The translations under genes were made by a program, and so were the position numbers. From Polytrichum commune (taxonomy: Eukaryota; Streptophyta; Polytrichopsida; Polytrichales; Polytrichaceae), in contig OX485803.1 of the NCBI GenBank assembly GCA_950295325.1, positions 18,662,001-18,726,000 on the forward strand: a stretch of 64,000 nt of DNA. The letters are read 5' to 3'. Shown piece after piece: positions 9,294-64,000 of the stretch (position 1 is the stretch's first letter; every line of letters starts with the position of its first letter). The notes beneath the pieces were generated by a model that was given only the letters and a program-made list of their open reading frames with translations, did not search any database and was not told the DNA's origin.

Positions 9294-9595
9294 GTAAGTA
9301 TGCGATTCCACCTGCTGTGCATTGAAACTTCCTCTTTTTTTTCTACCTTTACATGTCTGTTCCTTTCGTTCGATGTTAAAACGAACGAGACTTTTCTTTC
9401 AATTAAGGAGACGTTGTATGCTTCAGCGATGTGGTTCAGTTAGTGTCAGGATTTTATCGGAGAAGGTGAAGGGAGTATGAGGGTCGGCGAGGATTTTTGA
9501 TGAGTTAAACTGATGTGCTTGCAAAAGTCGGAAAAATTGTGGACGACATAAATGTTTATATTATGTTTTTTCTGAGAACTTAAGGGGTTGGCTTA

Positions 9596-9965
9596 AACGA
9601 AAGCCTTTACCCGGGTCCCATGGAAAATCCAAGGTTAAGCCGCTTAAAGCCCGAATAGCGTACTGCTGGGATGTGTGACCTTCTTAGCATGGATGGGTGC
9701 TTGATTTCCGGTGTACCCATACCCAATCATAGTGGGAGTATGGGGTGAACCGAATATTTTGAACCAACCATGGGGCTTGTCCTTGGGGGCGAGAGGTGCA
9801 GGCCAGCTTGTCTTCGCCTGTTCAAGGTGACCACCTTTGAAAGGAGGCATTAGTATTTGGGCCCTCTAATTTTTGCGATACCTGGGTTTGGGATTGCGGA
9901 CACACTTAGACCAACTTCAAAACAAAGAAACACTATAATTCACGCTAGTGGCAACGTTAGAGTAG
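9596..9965 (+). repeat. 5S rRNA-derived repeat, copy A (in eL28 5'UTR intron)
   Basis: From 9614 to 9683 the sequence follows the middle of 5S rRNA: GGGTCCCATGG, then AAGGTTAAGCCGCTT (A-box region), then TGGGATGTGTGACC (C-box; the plant consensus is GGATGGGTGACC). A body shared with copies B and C follows (CCAATCATAGTGGGAGTAT, GGGCTTGTCCTTGGGGG, GTTCAAGGTGACCACCTTTG, AAAGGAGGCA). The tail, near ATAATTCACGCTAGTGGCAA, is shared with the end of copy C. Known carriers of 5S sequence are SINE3-type SINEs and Cassandra TRIM elements, whose LTRs contain 5S. I cannot tell which applies because clear ends and target duplications are not seen. The orientation is the same as the host gene. Confidence 0.75.
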
Positions 9966-10024
9966 TCTTTTTGTTGTCTACTGTTCGAACACCTGATTTA
10001 TTTTTGAGGCCATCTGTGTGCAGG

Positions 10025-11609
10025 ATGGCGATCGCATCAGATGATTTGATTTGGTTGTTGGTCAAGAAGAACAACAGGTTCTTAGTAAAGAGGAATGGCA
10101 ACAACACCTCCTCCATTACCTTCAGCTCAGAGCCGAACAACTTGTACAACTTGAATAGCTACAAGTACTCAGGTAAGTAAATTAAAATGAGATTATCAAT
10201 GAATTCTATATGTTACAGAAAAGTGCTCGTCTTGAAGTATCTTGTGAATCCAGGATTTGACTATTTTTGAATCAAACTCAGAATTGAAGCACATTGCTGA
10301 ATCCTTTATCAGAGGGAAGGATGACTAAGATGATTTCATTGCTATATTTAGCAGTGTTGGACTGATACCCTTTTTTGATACCACTCAGGGATGCAGAACA
10401 AGGATATTACATTTTTTTGCTACCAGTAGGGTATAGGTATTTGAGGATATATTTGTTTTTGAGACCTTACAGGTTTATGCCATTTAAGGACCTTCAGACC
10501 TAGGTTAATCATCCTAGTATCAATATGATTTCAAATTGGTATTGACCCAAAGACTGACTCATCAGGTGCAAGATGCCTTCATAGCTGGTATTTTCTAGTA
10601 GTTTCTGAGACTAATAGGAGGCATCTTGTTATTTTCAGGATTGGCCAACAAGAAGACTGTTGCCGTGTTGCCTGGTGAGGATCTCTCTGTGGTGTTGGCC
10701 ACTACCAAGACCAAGAAGGCCAACCAACCAGGTAGTCTTGTGCACCGGTCACACTTGAAGAAGGACTTCCGTAAGATGGCTAAGGTGGTAAACAACCAGG
10801 TGAGTTGTTGATATCATCCACTCTAATATGTTTTACTTCGGTAGAAATTCTGTATGTTTTTCCATGTTAGGACCAGTGTTGAACTGGTATCACCTTCTTT
10901 TTTCGTCTATACCACTTGGCTATATATAATGAGAATCCTGCATGTTTTTTACTCCATAAGGGTACAGATATTCAATGATTTTTTTGGCTTAGGATTCGTG
11001 CCACTCATGTGAGGGGGGCTCAGTAGAAACCTACCCTCTGTAGGTTTATGGCTAATTCATCACAACTGAATCTCACTAGACTAATTTGAGGTCTCTGATG
11101 CTAATATTGGGGTCAAATCTGACGAGAAAAAAGTCCCCAAGTTATAAGGGGTTCACTATGTTTTCACCTTCAACTTACCTGAATGGCATGAACCCTTGGC
11201 CATTTCATTTTGTTTTTGATACCATTTGGGTCTATGGGCAAGAACTTTTATACCAAGGTAAATTAGCCTAGTATCAACATTGTATACAAAGATTCCCACC
11301 GAAGATCAATACCTTGTACTGCAATTCTGATACCGGTTGGGTAGGTTTTTTGGTACTGTCATTGATATTGTGTATTGATATCATGCATTCACCTGAATTC
11401 CTTTTGAAACATCATGATTGCACGTGAAGTTCTCTAATTCTGATAGTGTGTTGATTGTATGCATGATGCAGGTCGTGAGTAATGGATACAGACCTGATCT
11501 CAAAGCCGCGGCTCTTGCCAGACTTGCTGCAGTGCACAAAAGTCTTCGTGTGGCTAAGGCAGGTCAAAAGAAGAAGGTCTCCAAGGCTAGGAAATCTTCC
11601 AAGAATTAA
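10025..11609 (+). CDS. RPL28: 60S ribosomal protein L28 (eL28)
   Basis: Three coding exons, 10025-10172, 10639-10799 and 11472-11609, join with phases 1 and 0 into 148 residues, close to the usual plant length of about 143. The start [17 protein letters not shown] and the core [26 protein letters not shown] and [20 protein letters not shown] are typical of eL28, as is the lysine-rich tail ending SKARKSSKN. eL28 is a structural protein of the large cytosolic ribosomal subunit. The ATG at 10025 lies two bases after a CAG acceptor, so the upstream leader is spliced. The telo-box in the leader fits coordinated control with other ribosomal protein genes. The 5'UTR intron carries a 5S rRNA-like repeat, which is unusual. 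Confidence 0.96.
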
Positions 11610-13768
11610 AATGGCCATCACTGCATCCTTCTCTTTGCACATTACTAGTGTTTAGACCAAACAGATATTAATACAGGGATACTTCAAGAGAGCTTTTGAA
11701 GATTTTGATCTCCATGTCACCCAGAGCTTGTGGAATTCACAGAAGTATATTGTAAACTGAATTCGCTTAATCAGGAGTCTTAATCATGTGTCTGACCAGG
11801 TCCCCAGTATGTCAGGTGATGTATTCACTGCCTTGGTGAGTGCCCTAGGAAGTCTATGAATGGAGGCTGCATATTGGTTCACTCAAGATTTTCGCACCAA
11901 AGAAAGGACTACTTCAACTTTCAAATCTTGGGTCTAAGATATGCAATTTTTCATAAAAAATCCTCTGTATTTTGGTCAGAGATTCAGAGGCTTGAAGTGT
12001 ATCCTAGTGACACATAATGTTGTTGAATTTGGGACTGCTTACTGCACTCATCTGTTTTCTTTCTTTTCTTTGAATTTTTATGAGTATCTGCATGTTGGCT
12101 GCACAATGCAAAATGATGAATGCCATTTGGCTTTTGTTTGTTGTATCCAAATTTAAAGTTGGCAATAGGATGCAGTACTTTTATAAAATTGGAGTCAAGT
12201 CACAAGGCTAGAGCTATCATGGTTGATGTGATGGTGACAAGGTTGTATACAAGATATTTGATGTGGGGTTGGCATTGAACTGGCAAACCATGTTGTTTTG
12301 TTGGCAGTGTTTTTAGACTATAAATTCTCTCAAGAAATATCATTTTTTTGGTCTCTCTCTCTCCCTATCTCTCTCTTAATGCCATGCCACAAAATTTTGA
12401 TTTTAAACTCTTACATTAATCTACCTAGCAATGGTCCTCTTTATAAATAGACGACTCTAGGCTTAGAAGATTATAAGTTCACATACAAGGAAAGAAATCA
12501 TACTTACCATGAAATGGATGTACCAAGGATGTAGATGAATAGAGAAAAATAGCCATAGTTACAAACATGACCTATGTTTCTAATCCATGGTAAAATTAGG
12601 GTTTACAAAAACTTGCCATTTGTAAAAACTCCAAATAGAACCCGTAACCCTAGAAAGAGCCTTTTTTTTACCATTCACGCAAGTGAGAGGTGTAGTGAGC
12701 TTTGTGTATACTCACTGGGTAGTAGATACATGCTAAAAGTAAGAGCAATGTGGACTCATCACCAAGGGGAGTATTCTACTTGGAGTGACCCAATCATGGC
12801 CATGGAATAGGTTAGAACACCCATATGTAGTTTTACAATGAGCGTTGTAATTTGAAATACTATGATACATTTGAAATGGACCAAATGTGTGTGACATGGA
12901 TGACAACTGGGTCTTCTTGTTATTTACCTTGTGTACGTAACTAATCCTCAAATGTTTATTGGTTGGTTGCATGGCCACATGTGAGGTAGGCCCTTCACAC
13001 TTTCAATACAATGATGTATTGTGATTATGACATTTTATGCATATCTATTGGTTGAAGTTACTAAGAACATTTCCATTATAAGTACTCCATACATGTGGTG
13101 GATCAACTATATACGCTTTAAGGTGAACCAAGAAGATAGGTGATTAAACTTCCAAGGTATGGGGTAGTCAAAATCAAACATTTGTTGTTGGATATCATTT
13201 GATAGCAGAACCCCTAAGTAAGGTACATGTTCTTGCAAAGCAAAGGAGGCTATAACACAAAATGTTCATTTCGTACAACACATAGCTAGGCATGATTGCA
13301 AACAACTCTATTATGCAAGATGTTATTGTGTTATCAAATAGGAAGATGCAAAAGAAATAGAAAGAGTCTTGTGGAAATTCCCACCCACCCACTCTCGTAT
13401 TGCAATGAAGAAGTTAAAGGATTTTGACCTTTGTAAAGAGGAAGTTCAAACTTTGTAAAAGTTTTGAAAAGTCATCTCTCTCTGTCTCCCTCTCTCTAAT
13501 ATCATAGTTACAAATAATATCAGTGGATTCCTCTCAATGCCCTCTATTTCCAAGCATGTTGCTCCTCTTTGTGTTCTTACAAATCACCAATTCATTAGAT
13601 GTGTTATAAGTGATTTAGAAACAGCTAATCTAAAAGGGAGAGTTGCCACTGATCATTTGAGAACCCTTATTTTGTGATCTTTTGTTGCAAACCTAATCCC
13701 GCAAGGTTCCCAGAAAATAATTACTTAATCCATGCACTTATTTCTGCAGATAAATGTCATTCTAACTC
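11610..13768. other. 3' flank of eL28 and gene-free DNA
   Basis: The beginning is the 3'UTR of eL28. The rest has only short ORFs without recognisable products. A CT-rich simple repeat (CTCTCTCTCTCCC type) lies near 12351-12377 and a shorter one near 13475-13497. Confidence 0.55.
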
Positions 13769-14020
13769 ACTATGGCAATTTTTTGGATGACACTTTTGAA
13801 TAAGTGAACAGATATTGTCATGGATGATGGATGAGTTCATTCATTGGGCCAAAATCCTACCTTCTCTTGTCAACAACTCGTGATGGATTATTGTCATGGT
13901 TGATTGAAAATTGGATGTAAAATCACTTGATGAGTGACAGTAATTGCAACACTACAAATCTGTAATCCCCCAAAAATTTACAAGGAATGATAAATAATGT
14001 GGGGTTCACATTTAGTGTTG
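13769..14020 (+). repeat. Dispersed repeat family R1, copy 1
   Basis: The sequence beginning CACTATGGCA and containing GTCATGGATGATGGATGAG and GTGACAGTAATTGC recurs in the same order and spacing at 59209-59463. A partial inverted copy lies at 24655-24750. The copies differ by scattered substitutions and small indels. It may be a short non-autonomous element; I see no clear terminal repeats. Confidence 0.75.
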
Positions 14021-27518: not shown

Positions 27519-27548
27519 TCGGTTTACATTGGGGGGAACCCGGGTGGT

Positions 27549-28580
27549 GACACTCTGGCCCGGGGAAATGACGGGTGGCCCGGGGAACACAGACAACTCC
27601 TCCGCTTCTGTATCGGAGGTTCCAAATTCCAATCTGAAGCAACGGAAGCTTGGGCGATTGGGATTGTTGAGGTGGTGTCAGAGTTCATTAGATTTTTGAG
27701 CTTCCGCTACAAAGGCTGACTCATCATCTTTCGTCATCCCAATCTCATCGACCAGTTTTGGAAGTAGACAGCAAGCGACAGAATTATTCGGTTGCCATCA
27801 TCAACAACAACGAATCGGGTATTTCTTTACCACCTTTGGGATTTGGAAAGATGCTGTCACATATTCTGTGTTTGGTTGCTGTGATCACATTGCAGGAGAA
27901 GAATAATAATAGTAGGGAAGATTTGATATCCAAGTCACTGGGGATTAGTAGACCGCGAATTTCACCGACCCTCGTATGTTGGATTGTTGGATTGGGTGTG
28001 GAAACCTCCTACTTAAGCGGCGTTCTTTGCCATTCTTCAGAGTGAGGCTCGTTGCAGAAATCATCAAGAGTTCTTTCGCCGGTGCTTTTTATTTTATGTT
28101 TCTAATCATTTAAAATTGAATACCTGCGAGGGTGACACGAGGTTGGTAGCACTCTAAGATCAGGTGTGTGAATTCTTCGTTCGTGGTGGTTGTGTGATCT
28201 TGTGGAGGTTATGGGTTCTGTCGGCTTCATAATTTGCGAGTAGGAATTGAGGATTTGGTTTTTGTTAGGTCGACTTGAATGAATGGTGGGTTTTAGAACT
28301 ATGCCAGCTCATCGTCTTCATTTCACTAGAATTGGTAAGGGGGATGGCAGAAAGGGGATTCTAGGAAAGTGTAGTGTGTGGAACTTTGAGCATTTATGAA
28401 GACACCATATGAAGGAAAAGATTAGGGTGTCGGTGATTTTATTTTCTTCGTTTGTGTGGAAAAGTGTGGTACGAGGTTCGTGTACGAGGATGGTGGCTTT
28501 CTGAGCTAAATTTGGTTGTGGAAATCCTTTCTACACGGATTTTCAAACTTCTGTAGTGTAATGTCTTGAATTTAGTTGAT
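27549..28580 (+). repeat. Duplicated 1-kb block, copy 1 (upstream of the ERD7-like gene)
   Basis: Starting at GACACTCTGGCCCGGGG, the block is closely similar over its first 400 bp and more loosely to its end to 37941-38932, in the same orientation. Shared words include CTCCGCTTCTGTATCGGAGG, GACCAGTTTTGGAAGTAGAC and GGTTGCCATCATCAACAACA. A candidate donor (AATCGG|GTATTTC) follows the CAACAACAA stretch in both copies, so the block may hold a promoter plus a non-coding first exon. It has no conserved ORF. Confidence 0.85.
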
Positions 28581-37827: not shown

Positions 37828-37940
37828 AAGCCTTGGCTTAAACTCCGACCGGGCCCTGTTCTGTGGGCATTGTTGTCAGTTGACGTGGCAATATTCTATT
37901 GCCTGAGACCTGTAAACATATGGGGTGGGGACTATGTGTA

Positions 37941-38932
37941 GACACTCTGGCCCGGGGAAACGACAGGTGGCCCGGGGAACACAGACACCTCCTCCGCTTC
38001 TGTATCGGAGGTTCCAAATTCCAATCTGAAGCAACGGAAGCTTGGGCGATTGAGAATGTTGAGGTGCTGTCAGAGTTCATTAGATTTCTGAGCTTCCGCT
38101 ACAAAGACTGGCTCATCATCTTTCTTCATCTCAATCTCATCGACCAGTTTTGGAAGTAGACAGCAAGCGACAAATTTATTCGGTTGCCATCATCAACAAC
38201 AACAAATCGGGTATTTCTTCATTTTTCTCTACCACTTTCAGGGTTTGGAAAGATGCTCTGACATTTCTTAGTTTGGTTGCTGTGATCACATTACAGAAAA
38301 ATTAATAACAGTAGTAGGAAAGATTTGATATCCAAGTCACTGGGAATAGTAGACCGCGAATTTCACCGACCCTCGTATGTTGGATTGTTTGATTGGGTAT
38401 GGAAACCTCCTACTTAAACGGCGTTCTTTGCCATTTTTCAGAGTGAGGCTCGTTGCGGAAATCATCAAGAGATCCTTCGCCGGAGCATTTTTTTGCATGT
38501 TTTTCCCTGCGAGGGTGACACGAGGTTGGTAGCACTCTGAGATCAGGTGTGTGAATTCTTCGCTCGTGGCGGTTGTGTGATGTTGTGGGGGTTATGGGTT
38601 TGGTTAGTTTCATAATTTGCGAGTAGGAAAATGAGGATTGGTATTTGGGAGGTCGACTTGAATAAATAGTAGGTTCAGAACTATGCCAGCTTATCGTCTT
38701 CATTTTACTTGAATTGGAAGGGCAATGTGTGGAAATTTTAGAATTTATGAAGACACCATATAAAGAAAAAGATTAGGGTGTCGGTGATTTGCTTTTCTTC
38801 GTTTGTGTGGAGAAACGTGGTATTCAGTTTGCGCATGAGAATGGTGGCTTTCTGAGCTGAATTTGATCATGAAAGTCCTTTTTATGCAGACGTTCAATCT
38901 TTTGTAGTTTATGTCAAAATTTGAGTTCATTG
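37941..38932 (+). repeat. Duplicated 1-kb block, copy 2 (upstream of the TMEM186-like gene)
   Basis: This is the partner of 27549-28580, sharing nearly all of its first 400 bp including GACACTCTGGCCCGGGGAAA and TCCAAATTCCAATCTGAAGC. It has small deletions, for example in the stretch near 38500. It lies between the start of the COMMD-like gene (minus) and the start of the TMEM186-like gene (plus). A TGACGTGG element at 37881-37888 lies just outside it. Confidence 0.85.
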
Positions 38933-41900: not shown

Positions 41901-43354
41901 TGCAAAAATACTTGCTAATCCATTTCAATCACTCCATGACACAGGGATGTTGTCCCACCTTTGAAGGGACTGTCAAGATCTGAGCTCGAGAAAGCAGCAA
42001 ATCAAGTTCTCATCCCACTGGATGGTAAGGCATCATCTCTCCGCAAACAACCCCCATCTGTAATTTAAAGGATTAGTAGAAATCATTCTAATCCCCCACT
42101 AGTATTTAAAATTGGAGCTGTATTTTAATGTTCTCGACAAAGGGTTAGGGTAATAATCACAATCAACACAATGTTTGTACTAATCACAAGACAGTGGCTT
42201 GAACCCAAGGCCTTAACCAACATACAATGAGAACTCCAAGGTTAAGCCGCCTAAGGCCGAAATAGAGTTTGGCTGCGTGATCTTCCTAGCACTAGAGTTT
42301 CGGTGCACGCTCCCACTACCACTATGGTCCACCCAACCATAATGGAAGTATCTTGGTGAACCAAATATTTTCAAATAATCATGTGGGGATTGTCCTTGGG
42401 GGAGATTTAACGTGGGTCAGCTAGTTCAAGGTGTTCACCTTTAGGGTGGCTTCAACCTAAGGCCTTAAGTTGAATCCCATGGGAACTATGAGGTTGAGCT
42501 GCCTAAGGCCATAATAGTACTTGGATGGGTGACCTTCCTAGCACTCGATTTTTGGTGCACCCTACCACCTATGCTCCACCCAATCATAGTGGGGTTATCC
42601 AAGTGAACTAAATATTTTCATATGCACCATGTGGGACCTAGGGGCTTGGCCTTGGGGAAGATGGGTGCCATTGAGCTTGTCCATGCCTATTCAAGGTGTT
42701 CACCTTCGAAAGGAGGCACAAGTCGTTAGGGGCCTTATAATTCTCATAATGCCCGTGTCGGGATCACATATAAACTTAGACCGTAATTCACGCCAATGAC
42801 AACATTGGAACCCACTTTCTTTTCCTTGTTCAGCCTTGAAAGCAAGGAGTAGTCTTCAAGATCCCTCTAATTCTCCTAATGCAGTTACACATAGAATTAG
42901 ACTACGTTGAAGATGAAGCAACACCATAATTCGTGCCGGTGGCAACATCGGACTCATCTCTGTCTCTCTTTACACTAATCGCAAGTTGAGGTATTGGAAA
43001 CCCTGAGAACATGGAGTCCAGCCTCTGGATATCAGTGCATTTACATCTGTTTACCTTATCAGTGTCATTAATTTAATTTCCATGGGGTTGGTTTTGTTCC
43101 AGTTTGTAATACATAGACATGGGCAATGAAGTCCTGAGTTGATACATGTTTTGGGTGTTGCAGTCATTGGGGCGAGGCAGTTCTTTTTCAGCATAAGGCA
43201 TGGCCAAGTCATCAATAAAGAGTTGCTGTTTGCAATCCTTCACGGCACTTTGGACTTCAATGATGTGCAAAATGTACTAGCCAGGCAACAAGCTTCACTC
43301 CTAGACACTCATGCTGCAAGCACGGAGATCTCAGAATTGCCCCAAAAGATTTGA
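38989..43354 (+). CDS. TMEM186-like mitochondrial inner-membrane protein
   Basis: Seven exons, 38989-39266, 39893-39959, 40979-41070, 41525-41606, 41766-41785 (20 nt), 41945-42024 and 43164-43354, join in phase to 269 residues. The start MAIRKCLQSSLQNHLFK is basic and amphipathic, like a mitochondrial presequence. Conserved points match animal TMEM186: VVLYRAKWMQP, RLKIFQ, a hydrophobic pair (GGLAAFALPLAEYA and VGTIAAVTAVVGGAGAASAA), RRYVGEMAL, VVDFWGNRED, DVVPPLKG and FFFSIRHGQVINKE. Human TMEM186 belongs to the MCIA complex for assembly of respiratory complex I; a similar role in plants is inference. An upstream in-frame ATG at 38911 exists, but TGTACAG|G at 38977 looks like an acceptor, favouring 38989. 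Introns 2 and 6 carry a TIR element and 5S-like repeats. Confidence 0.85.
40635..40908. mobile_element. TIR element, family T3, copy 1 (in TMEM186-like intron 2)
   Basis: The left end AGGGTGGATTTACATC and the right end GTGTATACCCACCCTTA are imperfect inverted repeats. Inside the right end, GAGTTTCTTTGGTCTTCGAC matches the complement of the larger copy at 44695-45226. It has no ORF and is a MITE-like, non-autonomous element. Confidence 0.65.
42194..42445 (+). repeat. 5S rRNA-derived repeat, copy B (in TMEM186-like intron 6)
   Basis: The unit begins GTGGCTTGAACCCAAGG. It holds the 5S-like core GAGAACTCCAAGGTTAAGCC and GGCTGCGTGATC (42221-42286), with a damaged C-box. The body words match copies A and C. 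It stops at CACCTTTAGG, directly followed by copy C, giving a head-to-tail dimer with a 252-bp period. Confidence 0.7.
42446..42960 (+). repeat. 5S rRNA-derived repeat, copy C (in TMEM186-like intron 6)
   Basis: This is the best-preserved 5S similarity (42472-42560): GAATCCCATGGGAACTATG, GAGGTTGAGCTGCCTAAGGC, then TAGTACTTGGATGGGTGACC, then TTTTTGGTGCACC. The C-box GGATGGGTGACC is intact. The shared body continues to about 42790 (CAAGGTGTTCACCTTCGAAA, GGAGGCA). The tail region (CCCTCTAATTCTCCTAATG, ATAATTCGTGCCGGTGGCAA) is partly duplicated up to 42960. It may be a SINE3-like SINE or a Cassandra-type 5S-bearing LTR. Confidence 0.75.
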
Positions 43355-57376: not shown

Positions 57377-58578
57377 AAACCAATGAGATATAGAATGAAG
57401 TGTGTTTTCTTTTGTTGCTTCAAGTGTGTACTTAGTATAAAGAGATTTCAAATCATCCTTTGGGACGTTAGTTGGTAGTTTCATTGTTTTGCAGCGGTTT
57501 TCGTCTTATTTTGTTGGCTCTGTCTGTAGGACAGAGACTATGCATCAACTTCTTCGTTTCAAGAGTAAATTTCCTAACCACTTTGTGTTCACACTTGGAT
57601 GTTACTTGTTCTTGTTATTTTTGGTCCACTTTATGTCATGTGGATGTTAACTATAGTTTATATATAAGTGCTCCCTAAAATGCATTGAAAGAAATCTAGT
57701 TAACTATTGTTATTTCGGCAGTTCTGGATTATTTATTTTTTAAATTTCGGGTTGTAAATGAGTAGCTTCAATCCTTGACGTGTATTTGAGAAGAAGGTGC
57801 ACAAAATCCAAGAAAGGTTTTGGTATAGTGAATAGCCATGAATTGGCATGAACAAAGTGGACAACTACAATTGTAGTCTTTCGTAATAAAGAACAAAGCC
57901 TCACGGTTCTACTGTTTTCTTGTTTCTTTCACTGTAGGAGGGAGTTTGTTGGCTTGCTTGACTTTTGCTTCCTTGGCTCACCAACTACATGATAACAAGT
58001 TTTTTTTTTTGTTTTGTTTTGGTTATCGGATTAGCATCATATATCTCAAACTAGTGGGAGCTAGTTGGGAACGTTGGCTTCCCCTCACGACTCGTGTTCT
58101 TTTTTCCCCAAATACAATGGAAACCATTGGGTGAGTCACGTTCTTTGGCTTGAATGTGGGAAAGGGTGGTTTGGTTTGGTTTCGGTACCCAATAACATGA
58201 TTTGGCGTGATTGGCTTTGTTTCATGGTACATACGCCAAGTGATGTTGTAAGAAACGGACACAATTGTCATACATGTCTTGCCCTTTGAAGTCAGACCCT
58301 TGTCAAAACCGTGTAGTCAACTATATTGTAACATATATTTTCTTTTCTTTTCTTTTCTTGTTTATTGGATTGATTGTGGGTTTAGCAACAAAGATCTCAA
58401 ATTAGTCTATTGGGAGCCAATTGGGATGATGTAACCATAAATCTATGGGGGGCATGTTTTGATGGGCATCATTTTACCTTGGTAAGTCTTCTTTGAATGT
58501 GTCCTTAACTCAAATGTGGTAAAGAGAAATTCAATTCAGTCATGGTAACTAGCTTAACATGACTTGCTTTTATTTATA

Positions 58579-58609: not shown

Positions 58610-59208
58610 CAAGGGACGTGCATTAATATAACAATCAAGACTATAGTAGGTGTCTTTCTCTTTAAGGTGGGGCCATTGTCAAATCTTACCCAGGGCTAGC
58701 ATGTAGTCCACTTTATTATAACACAAAAACTATTTCCTTTTCTTATTTGAATTTTGGGATTTACAAATGATTTCACAATCGTAGCATTAAAATGGATATA
58801 CGGCCCCCATCATTTTGCTTGAGATGGACAAAAGTCAACTATATTATAGCATGGAATTGTTTTCTCCGGTTGATTTGGCTCTCAAATTAGTATCGTAAAT
58901 CCCGAATTAGTCTATTGGAGTGATTTGAATGTATATATAAACATGTATCTATGTCACAAACCCACTTAACTCCACCATGGGAAAGATTGATTTGATCCAC
59001 ATATCATATAAATGGCTAAATGTAACTAATGTTGTTTCAAGATAGATGATACGTCAAGACAAGTACAAGTAAACCAAATGTCATACGTACAGTATATATA
59101 CGGTTCTCTTTAGCTTCAACATAAGACCCCCAAAGTCAACTATGCTATAAGAGATAAATGGCCTACACTACACATGATAGATAGTGTCATATTATGGTAT
59201 TTGATATC

Positions 59209-59463
59209 ACTATGGCACCTTTTTGGATGACACTTCTTGTGAATAAGTGAACGAATATTGTCATGGATGATGGATGAGTTCATCAGTGGCCAAAACCTTG
59301 CCTCCTGTTGTTAGTAACTTGTGATGATATATTGTCATGGATGACTGAAATTTGGATGAAAAATGACTTGGTAAGTGACAGTAATTGCGACATTGTAAAT
59401 CTAGGATACCCTTAAAAGACTTGCAAGGAATGACAAATAATGTTGGGTTAACATTTACACCGC
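59209..59463 (+). repeat. Dispersed repeat family R1, copy 2
   Basis: This is the partner of 13769-14020. CACTATGGCA, TTTTTGGATGACACTT, GTCATGGATGATGGATGAG, GTGACAGTAATTGC and CAAGGAATGACAAATAATGT lie in the same order. It is flanked on the left by the degenerate array. Confidence 0.75.
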
Positions 59464-63520: not shown

Positions 63521-64000
63521 ACCCACTCCTTGAACGATAATAACCTCCAAGAGTCCGAAGCCATACGCCCATAATTGTCTAAAACAACTCAATTCAAATT
63601 CATCAACAATTTTGTGAAGAGAATGTCGATCTGTGATGGTAAATTTGAATTTTAGGGATGGCATTCTTGAAGGGTTGGGATTGTTCACATTGACTTTCAC
63701 CTAATTACATGTCTTAACAGAAATATGTATGTTGGTGTGGTTAGGTACCATGACCAAAAAACAAATCAGGACCCACTCCTTGAACAATAATAACCTCCAA
63801 GAGTCCGAAGCCATATGCCCATAATTGTCTAAAACAACTCAATTCAAATTCATCAACAATTTTGTGAAGAGAATGTCGATCTGTGATGGTAAATTTGAAT
63901 TTTAGGGATGCCATTTTTGAAGGGTTGGGATTGTTCACATTGACTTTCACCTAATTACATGTCTTAACAGAAATATGTATGTTGGTGTGGTTAGGTACCA
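63521..64000. repeat. 250-bp tandem repeat, two copies, running off the window
   Basis: Copy 1 (63521-63750) and copy 2 (63771-64000) both begin ACCCACTCCTTGAAC and end at GTGTGGTTAGGTACCA. They are nearly identical, with only a handful of substitutions. The period is 250 bp including a 20-bp linker. Similar 60-codon minus-strand ORFs in the two copies are by-products of the duplication. The high identity means a recent event, and more copies may follow beyond the window. Confidence 0.9.

Follow-up and report, generated by a model that had tools for sequence, protein, structure and literature searches.

SINEs of the SINE3 type, whose 5' end is a head derived from 5S rRNA, are on record from a range of vertebrates and from some insects (PMC7245038, PMC8010984, PMC3747384), and PMC10853983 mentions a comparable promoter acquisition "for SINEs in animals". 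Zebrafish SINE3, HaSE3, PxSE4/PxSE5 and AfuSINE3 are members of this type, and 5S-headed SINEs have been described in moths (PMC8010984) and in Aspergillus (PMC5063351). In the plant retroelement Cassandra, as seen in a set of 81 members, the 5S unit has a position near mid-LTR and a Met primer site is present (PMC10853983); the Cassandra 5S promoter has been proposed to derive from a SINE3 insertion into an LTR (PMC10886601). A third system, the 5S mimic of the plant TFIIIA pre-mRNA, lies in an exon, and binding of the ribosomal protein L5 to it triggers exon skipping (PMC5972288).

Here, we report three copies of a ~380-nt element with a 5S rRNA-derived head in a 64,000-nucleotide stretch of the Polytrichum commune genome (the window; assembly GCA_950295325.1, contig OX485803.1, positions 18,662,001 to 18,726,000 of the forward strand), one of them within an intron of a ribosomal protein gene. 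We consider it quite likely that this is a SINE-type retroelement, short and non-coding. The element shares with SINE3 the 5' terminal 5S head with A, IE and C boxes, an unrelated body and tail, a size of a few hundred nt with no long reading frame expected, and target duplications that exceed the length found at LTR elements, here at two of the three copies. It differs in its plant host and in its C/T-rich end, where SINE3 has an A tail; the likeness is judged by layout, which agrees with that of the moth and Aspergillus elements. With Cassandra it has in common the plant host, a 5S-derived pol III promoter, here a putative one, and a similar size, but the 5S unit, mid-LTR in Cassandra (PMC10853983), is terminal here, neither paired LTRs nor a Met site were found, and the duplications seen are longer than 4-6 bp. 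The TFIIIA mimic is similar in that a 5S-like sequence is present in a pre-mRNA of the 5S/ribosome pathway, whereas it is exonic and its structure is bound by L5 (PMC5972288), in contrast to the decayed intronic insertion found here.

The eL28 gene and its leader intron

The first of the three copies, copy A, lies in the 5'UTR intron of the gene for ribosomal protein eL28. The intron is predicted at 9294-10023 on the + strand from a GTAAGT donor and a GTGCAG acceptor; it is 730 nt long, of the GT..AG type, and directly 5' of the ATG, with the start codon at 10025. The exons 3' of 10025, joined by eye, give a protein of 148 aa that matches Pfam PF01778 Ribosomal_L28e (E 3e-34) as well as eL28 chains in the PDB, the best six with E values from 2.3e-50 to 1.1e-43, in entries that we take to be plant ribosomes. 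Among viral contigs, the eL28 protein gave 20 candidates, none of which was confirmed. One arm of a 78-nt inverted repeat pair (11027-11104 / 58382-58459, 77% complementary) falls within a later eL28 intron.

Three 5S-like words had been read in the leader intron, in sense, in the earlier note on this DNA. All three are placed as claimed on the + strand: CCCATGG at 9617-9623, GGTTAAGC at 9633-9640 and GGGATGTGTGACC at 9668-9680.

The 5S rRNA-derived head

Copy A was aligned to a plant 5S rRNA. The 5S-derived head occupies 9585-9718 (+ strand) and spans 5S positions 1-119 plus extra bases, so that the stretch 9614-9683, earlier taken to be the promoter part of 5S rRNA, is indeed 5S-derived by sequence but covers only part of the true extent. 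In the global alignment, 83 of 114 aligned bases are identical (73%), with a z of 6.2 against 500 letter shuffles; the heads of the two copies at 42 kb, which we call the outer and the inner copy, give 74/111 (67%, z 5.3) and 83/110 (75%, z 9.0), respectively, each against 500 shuffles. The local score of copy A against plant 5S is 28, and 2 of 1000 dinucleotide shuffles score as high; the local score of the 42-kb locus is 48, which none of 1000 shuffles reaches. Against human 5S, the 42-kb locus is significant (0/1000 shuffles), and copy A is not (426 of 1000 shuffles reach its score). The promoter boxes are partially kept in the copies, the IE box with 3-5 of 6 and the A box with 10-12 of 15 bases, and in the inner copy the C box is the best preserved of the three (16/18). 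In the alignment, copy A shows an excess of 5 bases in the interval from the IE to the C box, and of 10-12 beyond the C box. Judged from these alignments, 9585-9718 is a descendant of a whole 5S rRNA, decayed in its structure.

The decay can be seen in the structural analysis. At gathering scores, the Rfam 5S model has no match in the whole window, and for copy A, where a significant score had been the check proposed in the earlier note, there is none up to E 10 in either 9300-10300 or 9590-9730. The inner copy matches model positions 1-120 weakly at 42444-42563, with 14.1 bits and E 4.3 against a gathering score of 38. We then counted base pairs over the 34 pairs of the Rfam 5S structure, of which plant 5S forms 31. 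Copy A keeps 19 (shuffled letters average 13.6, p 0.036), including 7 of the 9 pairs of its terminal helix; the inner copy keeps 22 (shuffles average 12.9, 0 of 2000 as high) and the outer copy 15 (average 10.8, p 0.07). The predicted folds have z values against shuffles of -0.41 for copy A, -0.86 for the outer and -1.57 for the inner copy, i.e., the 5S part of copy A folds no better than its shuffles.

Three copies of one element at two loci

A self-search of the window indicated that the similarity extends beyond the 5S part and recurs at 42.2-42.95 kb. Every copy carries, attached to its 5S part, a shared stretch of ~250 nt that is not 5S sequence; the head (5S) measures about 120-134 nt, and the body and tail that follow it about 120-135 nt each. 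Copy A (9583-9966, + strand, ~384 nt, sense to eL28) has its body at 9719-9837, common to both other copies, and its tail at 9838-9966, common to all three, the limits of both being approximate; a T-rich stretch follows. The tails of the element run into T- or C/T-rich ends, and a (T)n end is common among plant SINEs (PMC3747384).

At the 42-kb locus the order is head-body, head-body-tail, tail, which is explained by one element inserted into another. The first part of the outer copy, 5S head plus body, lies at 42193-42441; it is followed by the whole inner copy at 42442-42826, with its 5S head at about 42444-42563, and then by the second part of the outer copy, the tail with a C/T-rich end, at 42838-42973 (all + strand). 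The outer copy, joined across the inner insertion, reads on like copy A and the inner copy. The body ends in a near-palindrome, TTCAAGGTGNNCACCTTYGAA (9821-9847 / 42690-42716), which is present in 3/3 copies, and the nested copy was inserted in the outer copy right at this near-palindrome.

Profiles were built from the three copies' own head-body and tail stretches, and the E values of those copies are therefore self-inclusive: 9583-9849 (E 2.5e-76) and 9827-9963 (E 1.6e-40) for copy A, 42193-42441 (E 1.1e-78) and 42827-42954 (E 6.8e-35) for the outer copy, and 42442-42718 (E 2e-88) and, for the tail, 42696-42811 (E 2.3e-32) for the inner copy. The two profiles found no further copies in the window, the next matches having E values of 0.6 and 8.5, and with the tail profile matching only these three copies, no partner LINE was found there. 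Pattern scans for the element in viral contigs and prokaryote genome contigs also gave none, as expected of a plant repeat.

As cut, the three copies at the two loci measure 384, 372 and 374 nt. Their pairwise identities are 73.5, 74.6 and 74.6% (K2P 0.31-0.33), copy A being 73.5% and 74.6% identical to the other two, and such near-equal distances are to be expected if the copies spread from one source. In the profile matches, the homology between the copies starts no more than 2 nt away from 5S position 1, and in the BLAST alignments about 6 nt ahead of that position; a start near this position is expected if an internal 5S promoter started the mobile RNA.

All three copies are on the + strand, as are eL28 and, by splice signals only, the gene at 42 kb. 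This second gene would have an intron at about 42025-43163, likewise read from splice signals only, and two joined exon guesses gave no Pfam match. The repeat had earlier been said to be present in another gene's intron, and this holds, with two sister copies at 42 kb, one of them nested, in an intron that is predicted from splice signals.

Several other repeats were seen in the window. Long direct repeats at 27544-28560 and 37936-38911, about 10.4 kb apart, consist of pieces that are 81-94% identical, and either a segmental duplication or a pair of old LTRs could account for them; between them are open reading frames at 29.6-32.9 kb, of which two were tried with no Pfam match. A dispersed repeat is found at 13754-13976 and 59194-59417 on the same strand (pieces 78-94% identical). 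Two copies in tandem, offset by 250 nt and sharing 98% identity across 230 nt, occupy 63521-64000; they run to the window end and are perhaps the edge of a satellite array.

Flanking duplications

The outer copy is flanked by ACTAATCACAAG on the left (42179-42190, + strand) and ACTAATCGCAAG on the right (42974-42985, + strand), which match at 11 of 12 positions. When only repeats that abut the element are allowed, controls matched in position do as well as this 12-nt duplication in 2 of 1500 cases; without the position constraint it is marginal, with 3 of 120 controls as good and between 2.5% and 6% in a set of 3000. At the inner copy, the left duplication TGTTCACCTT (42432-42441, + strand), which is also part of the outer copy body, matches the right one, TGTTCAGCCTT (42827-42837, + strand), with a 1-nt gap. 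The p value for this 10-11 nt duplication is 0.0024 (20000 placements); please note that the 1-nt gap is needed for the match and that the duplication was tested after being seen. With another, misplaced cut, the score at the inner copy was 6.0 and the null 0.15. Copy A has no flanking duplication: its best score, 3.5, is reached by 33% of 800 controls, and we put the missing duplication down to age. Duplications of 10-12 nt are hence present at two of the three copies, and this is more than the 4-6 bp found at LTR elements.

Alternative explanations

The copies could be those of Cassandra or a Cassandra-like TRIM, with the 5S promoter in LTRs that are now solo or in tandem and that were spread by tRNA-primed reverse transcription and integrase. 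Of retroelements that bear a 5S unit, Cassandra was the only one we found reported from plants, and tandem Cassandra arrays are on record (PMC7215508, PMC4717578), which would suit the two 5S units in a row at the 42-kb locus; the two units are, however, explained by the nesting. The 5S unit is terminal here, and in the set of 81 Cassandras it is never at the LTR ends (PMC10853983). The duplications of 10-12 nt also contrast with the 4-6 bp given for TRIMs (PMC4717578). For the Met primer site, taken as a 12-mer, the window has no site with fewer than two mismatches, and none of the seven sites with two mismatches is inside an element. TG..CA pairs with a one-mismatch 5-bp repeat do occur, one around copy A, three around the 42-kb locus and one near the inner copy, but random places average 4.8, 5.6 and 1.3 such pairs, respectively. 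There is no case with a perfect 5-bp repeat, which is weak evidence since such a case turns up at just 87, 86 and 32 of 300 random places for the three scan sizes; the scan for TG..CA ends thus discriminates poorly in both directions, and such ends could have been lost from an old copy. We set Cassandra aside on the start of homology near 5S position 1 and on the 10-12 nt duplications, both of which fit a SINE3-type SINE better, and we regard it as an unlikely source of these copies.

Scattered 5S pseudogenes spread by duplication of DNA, and not by retroposition, would account for the 5S descent, and at first sight the 42-kb locus resembles a tandem duplication. Against this, each copy has the same non-5S sequence attached to its 5S part, one copy is interrupted by the nested one with a short duplication at the junction, and among the matches listed in the self-search none links the two loci outside the element. 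We judge this origin to be very improbable.

The earlier note had also weighed a regulatory 5S-like fold. On such a reading the intron RNA would fold like 5S rRNA, bind L5 or TFIIIA and control eL28 splicing, and this we consider hardly credible: the sense orientation inside a ribosomal-protein gene intron, the TFIIIA precedent (PMC5972288), the terminal helix and a pair count slightly above that of shuffled letters speak for it, but such a mimic is not supported because copy A has no Rfam match, keeps 19 of the 34 pairs (31 in plant 5S) and folds like its shuffles, and, moreover, extra bases lie inside its 5S unit, sister copies sit at the unrelated 42-kb locus, and the TFIIIA mimic is exonic (PMC5972288), whereas copy A is intronic. 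A local or species-specific effect of copy A on eL28 splicing may nonetheless exist.

Discussion

The reading that we prefer, a SINE-type retroelement with a 5S rRNA-derived head, agrees with the retroelement insertion that the earlier note had weighed, and it is supported by the three copies of one element, two of them with end repeats of 10-12 nt. In such an element, the A, IE and C boxes inherited from 5S would serve as an internal promoter and let RNA polymerase III start at the 5S start point. A LINE enzyme would then reverse transcribe the resulting RNA, composed of the 5S head, the body and the tail, at a target site that has been nicked, and target-primed retroposition of this kind would leave target duplications of about 10-12 nt. 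Copy A itself is probably an old passenger in the eL28 intron, which would be spliced out without effect.

SINEs with a 5S head are a known kind in animals and fungi, and here we find a probable one in a host group for which no record was found. Our literature search, which covered titles and the starts of abstracts, those of the hits listed for the broader queries, and few subscription papers, with Repbase and SINEBase outside the search, found no report of a 5S-headed SINE in a plant; in PMC11490119, 5S SINEs come up only in a reference. AnnoSINE, an annotator of plant SINEs, has 5S rRNA among its head classes (PMC8825457), so plant 5S-headed SINEs may already have been called somewhere. Conceivably, this is the first family of SINEs with a 5S head from a land plant, a priority that we put forward tentatively.

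For the eL28 gene, the finding is a caution that 5S boxes in the intron of a ribosomal-protein gene need not mean regulation. If our reading is true, a plant SINE3 would be a stock of the kind proposed as the source of Cassandra's 5S promoter, and the proposed SINE3 origin of that promoter would become testable.
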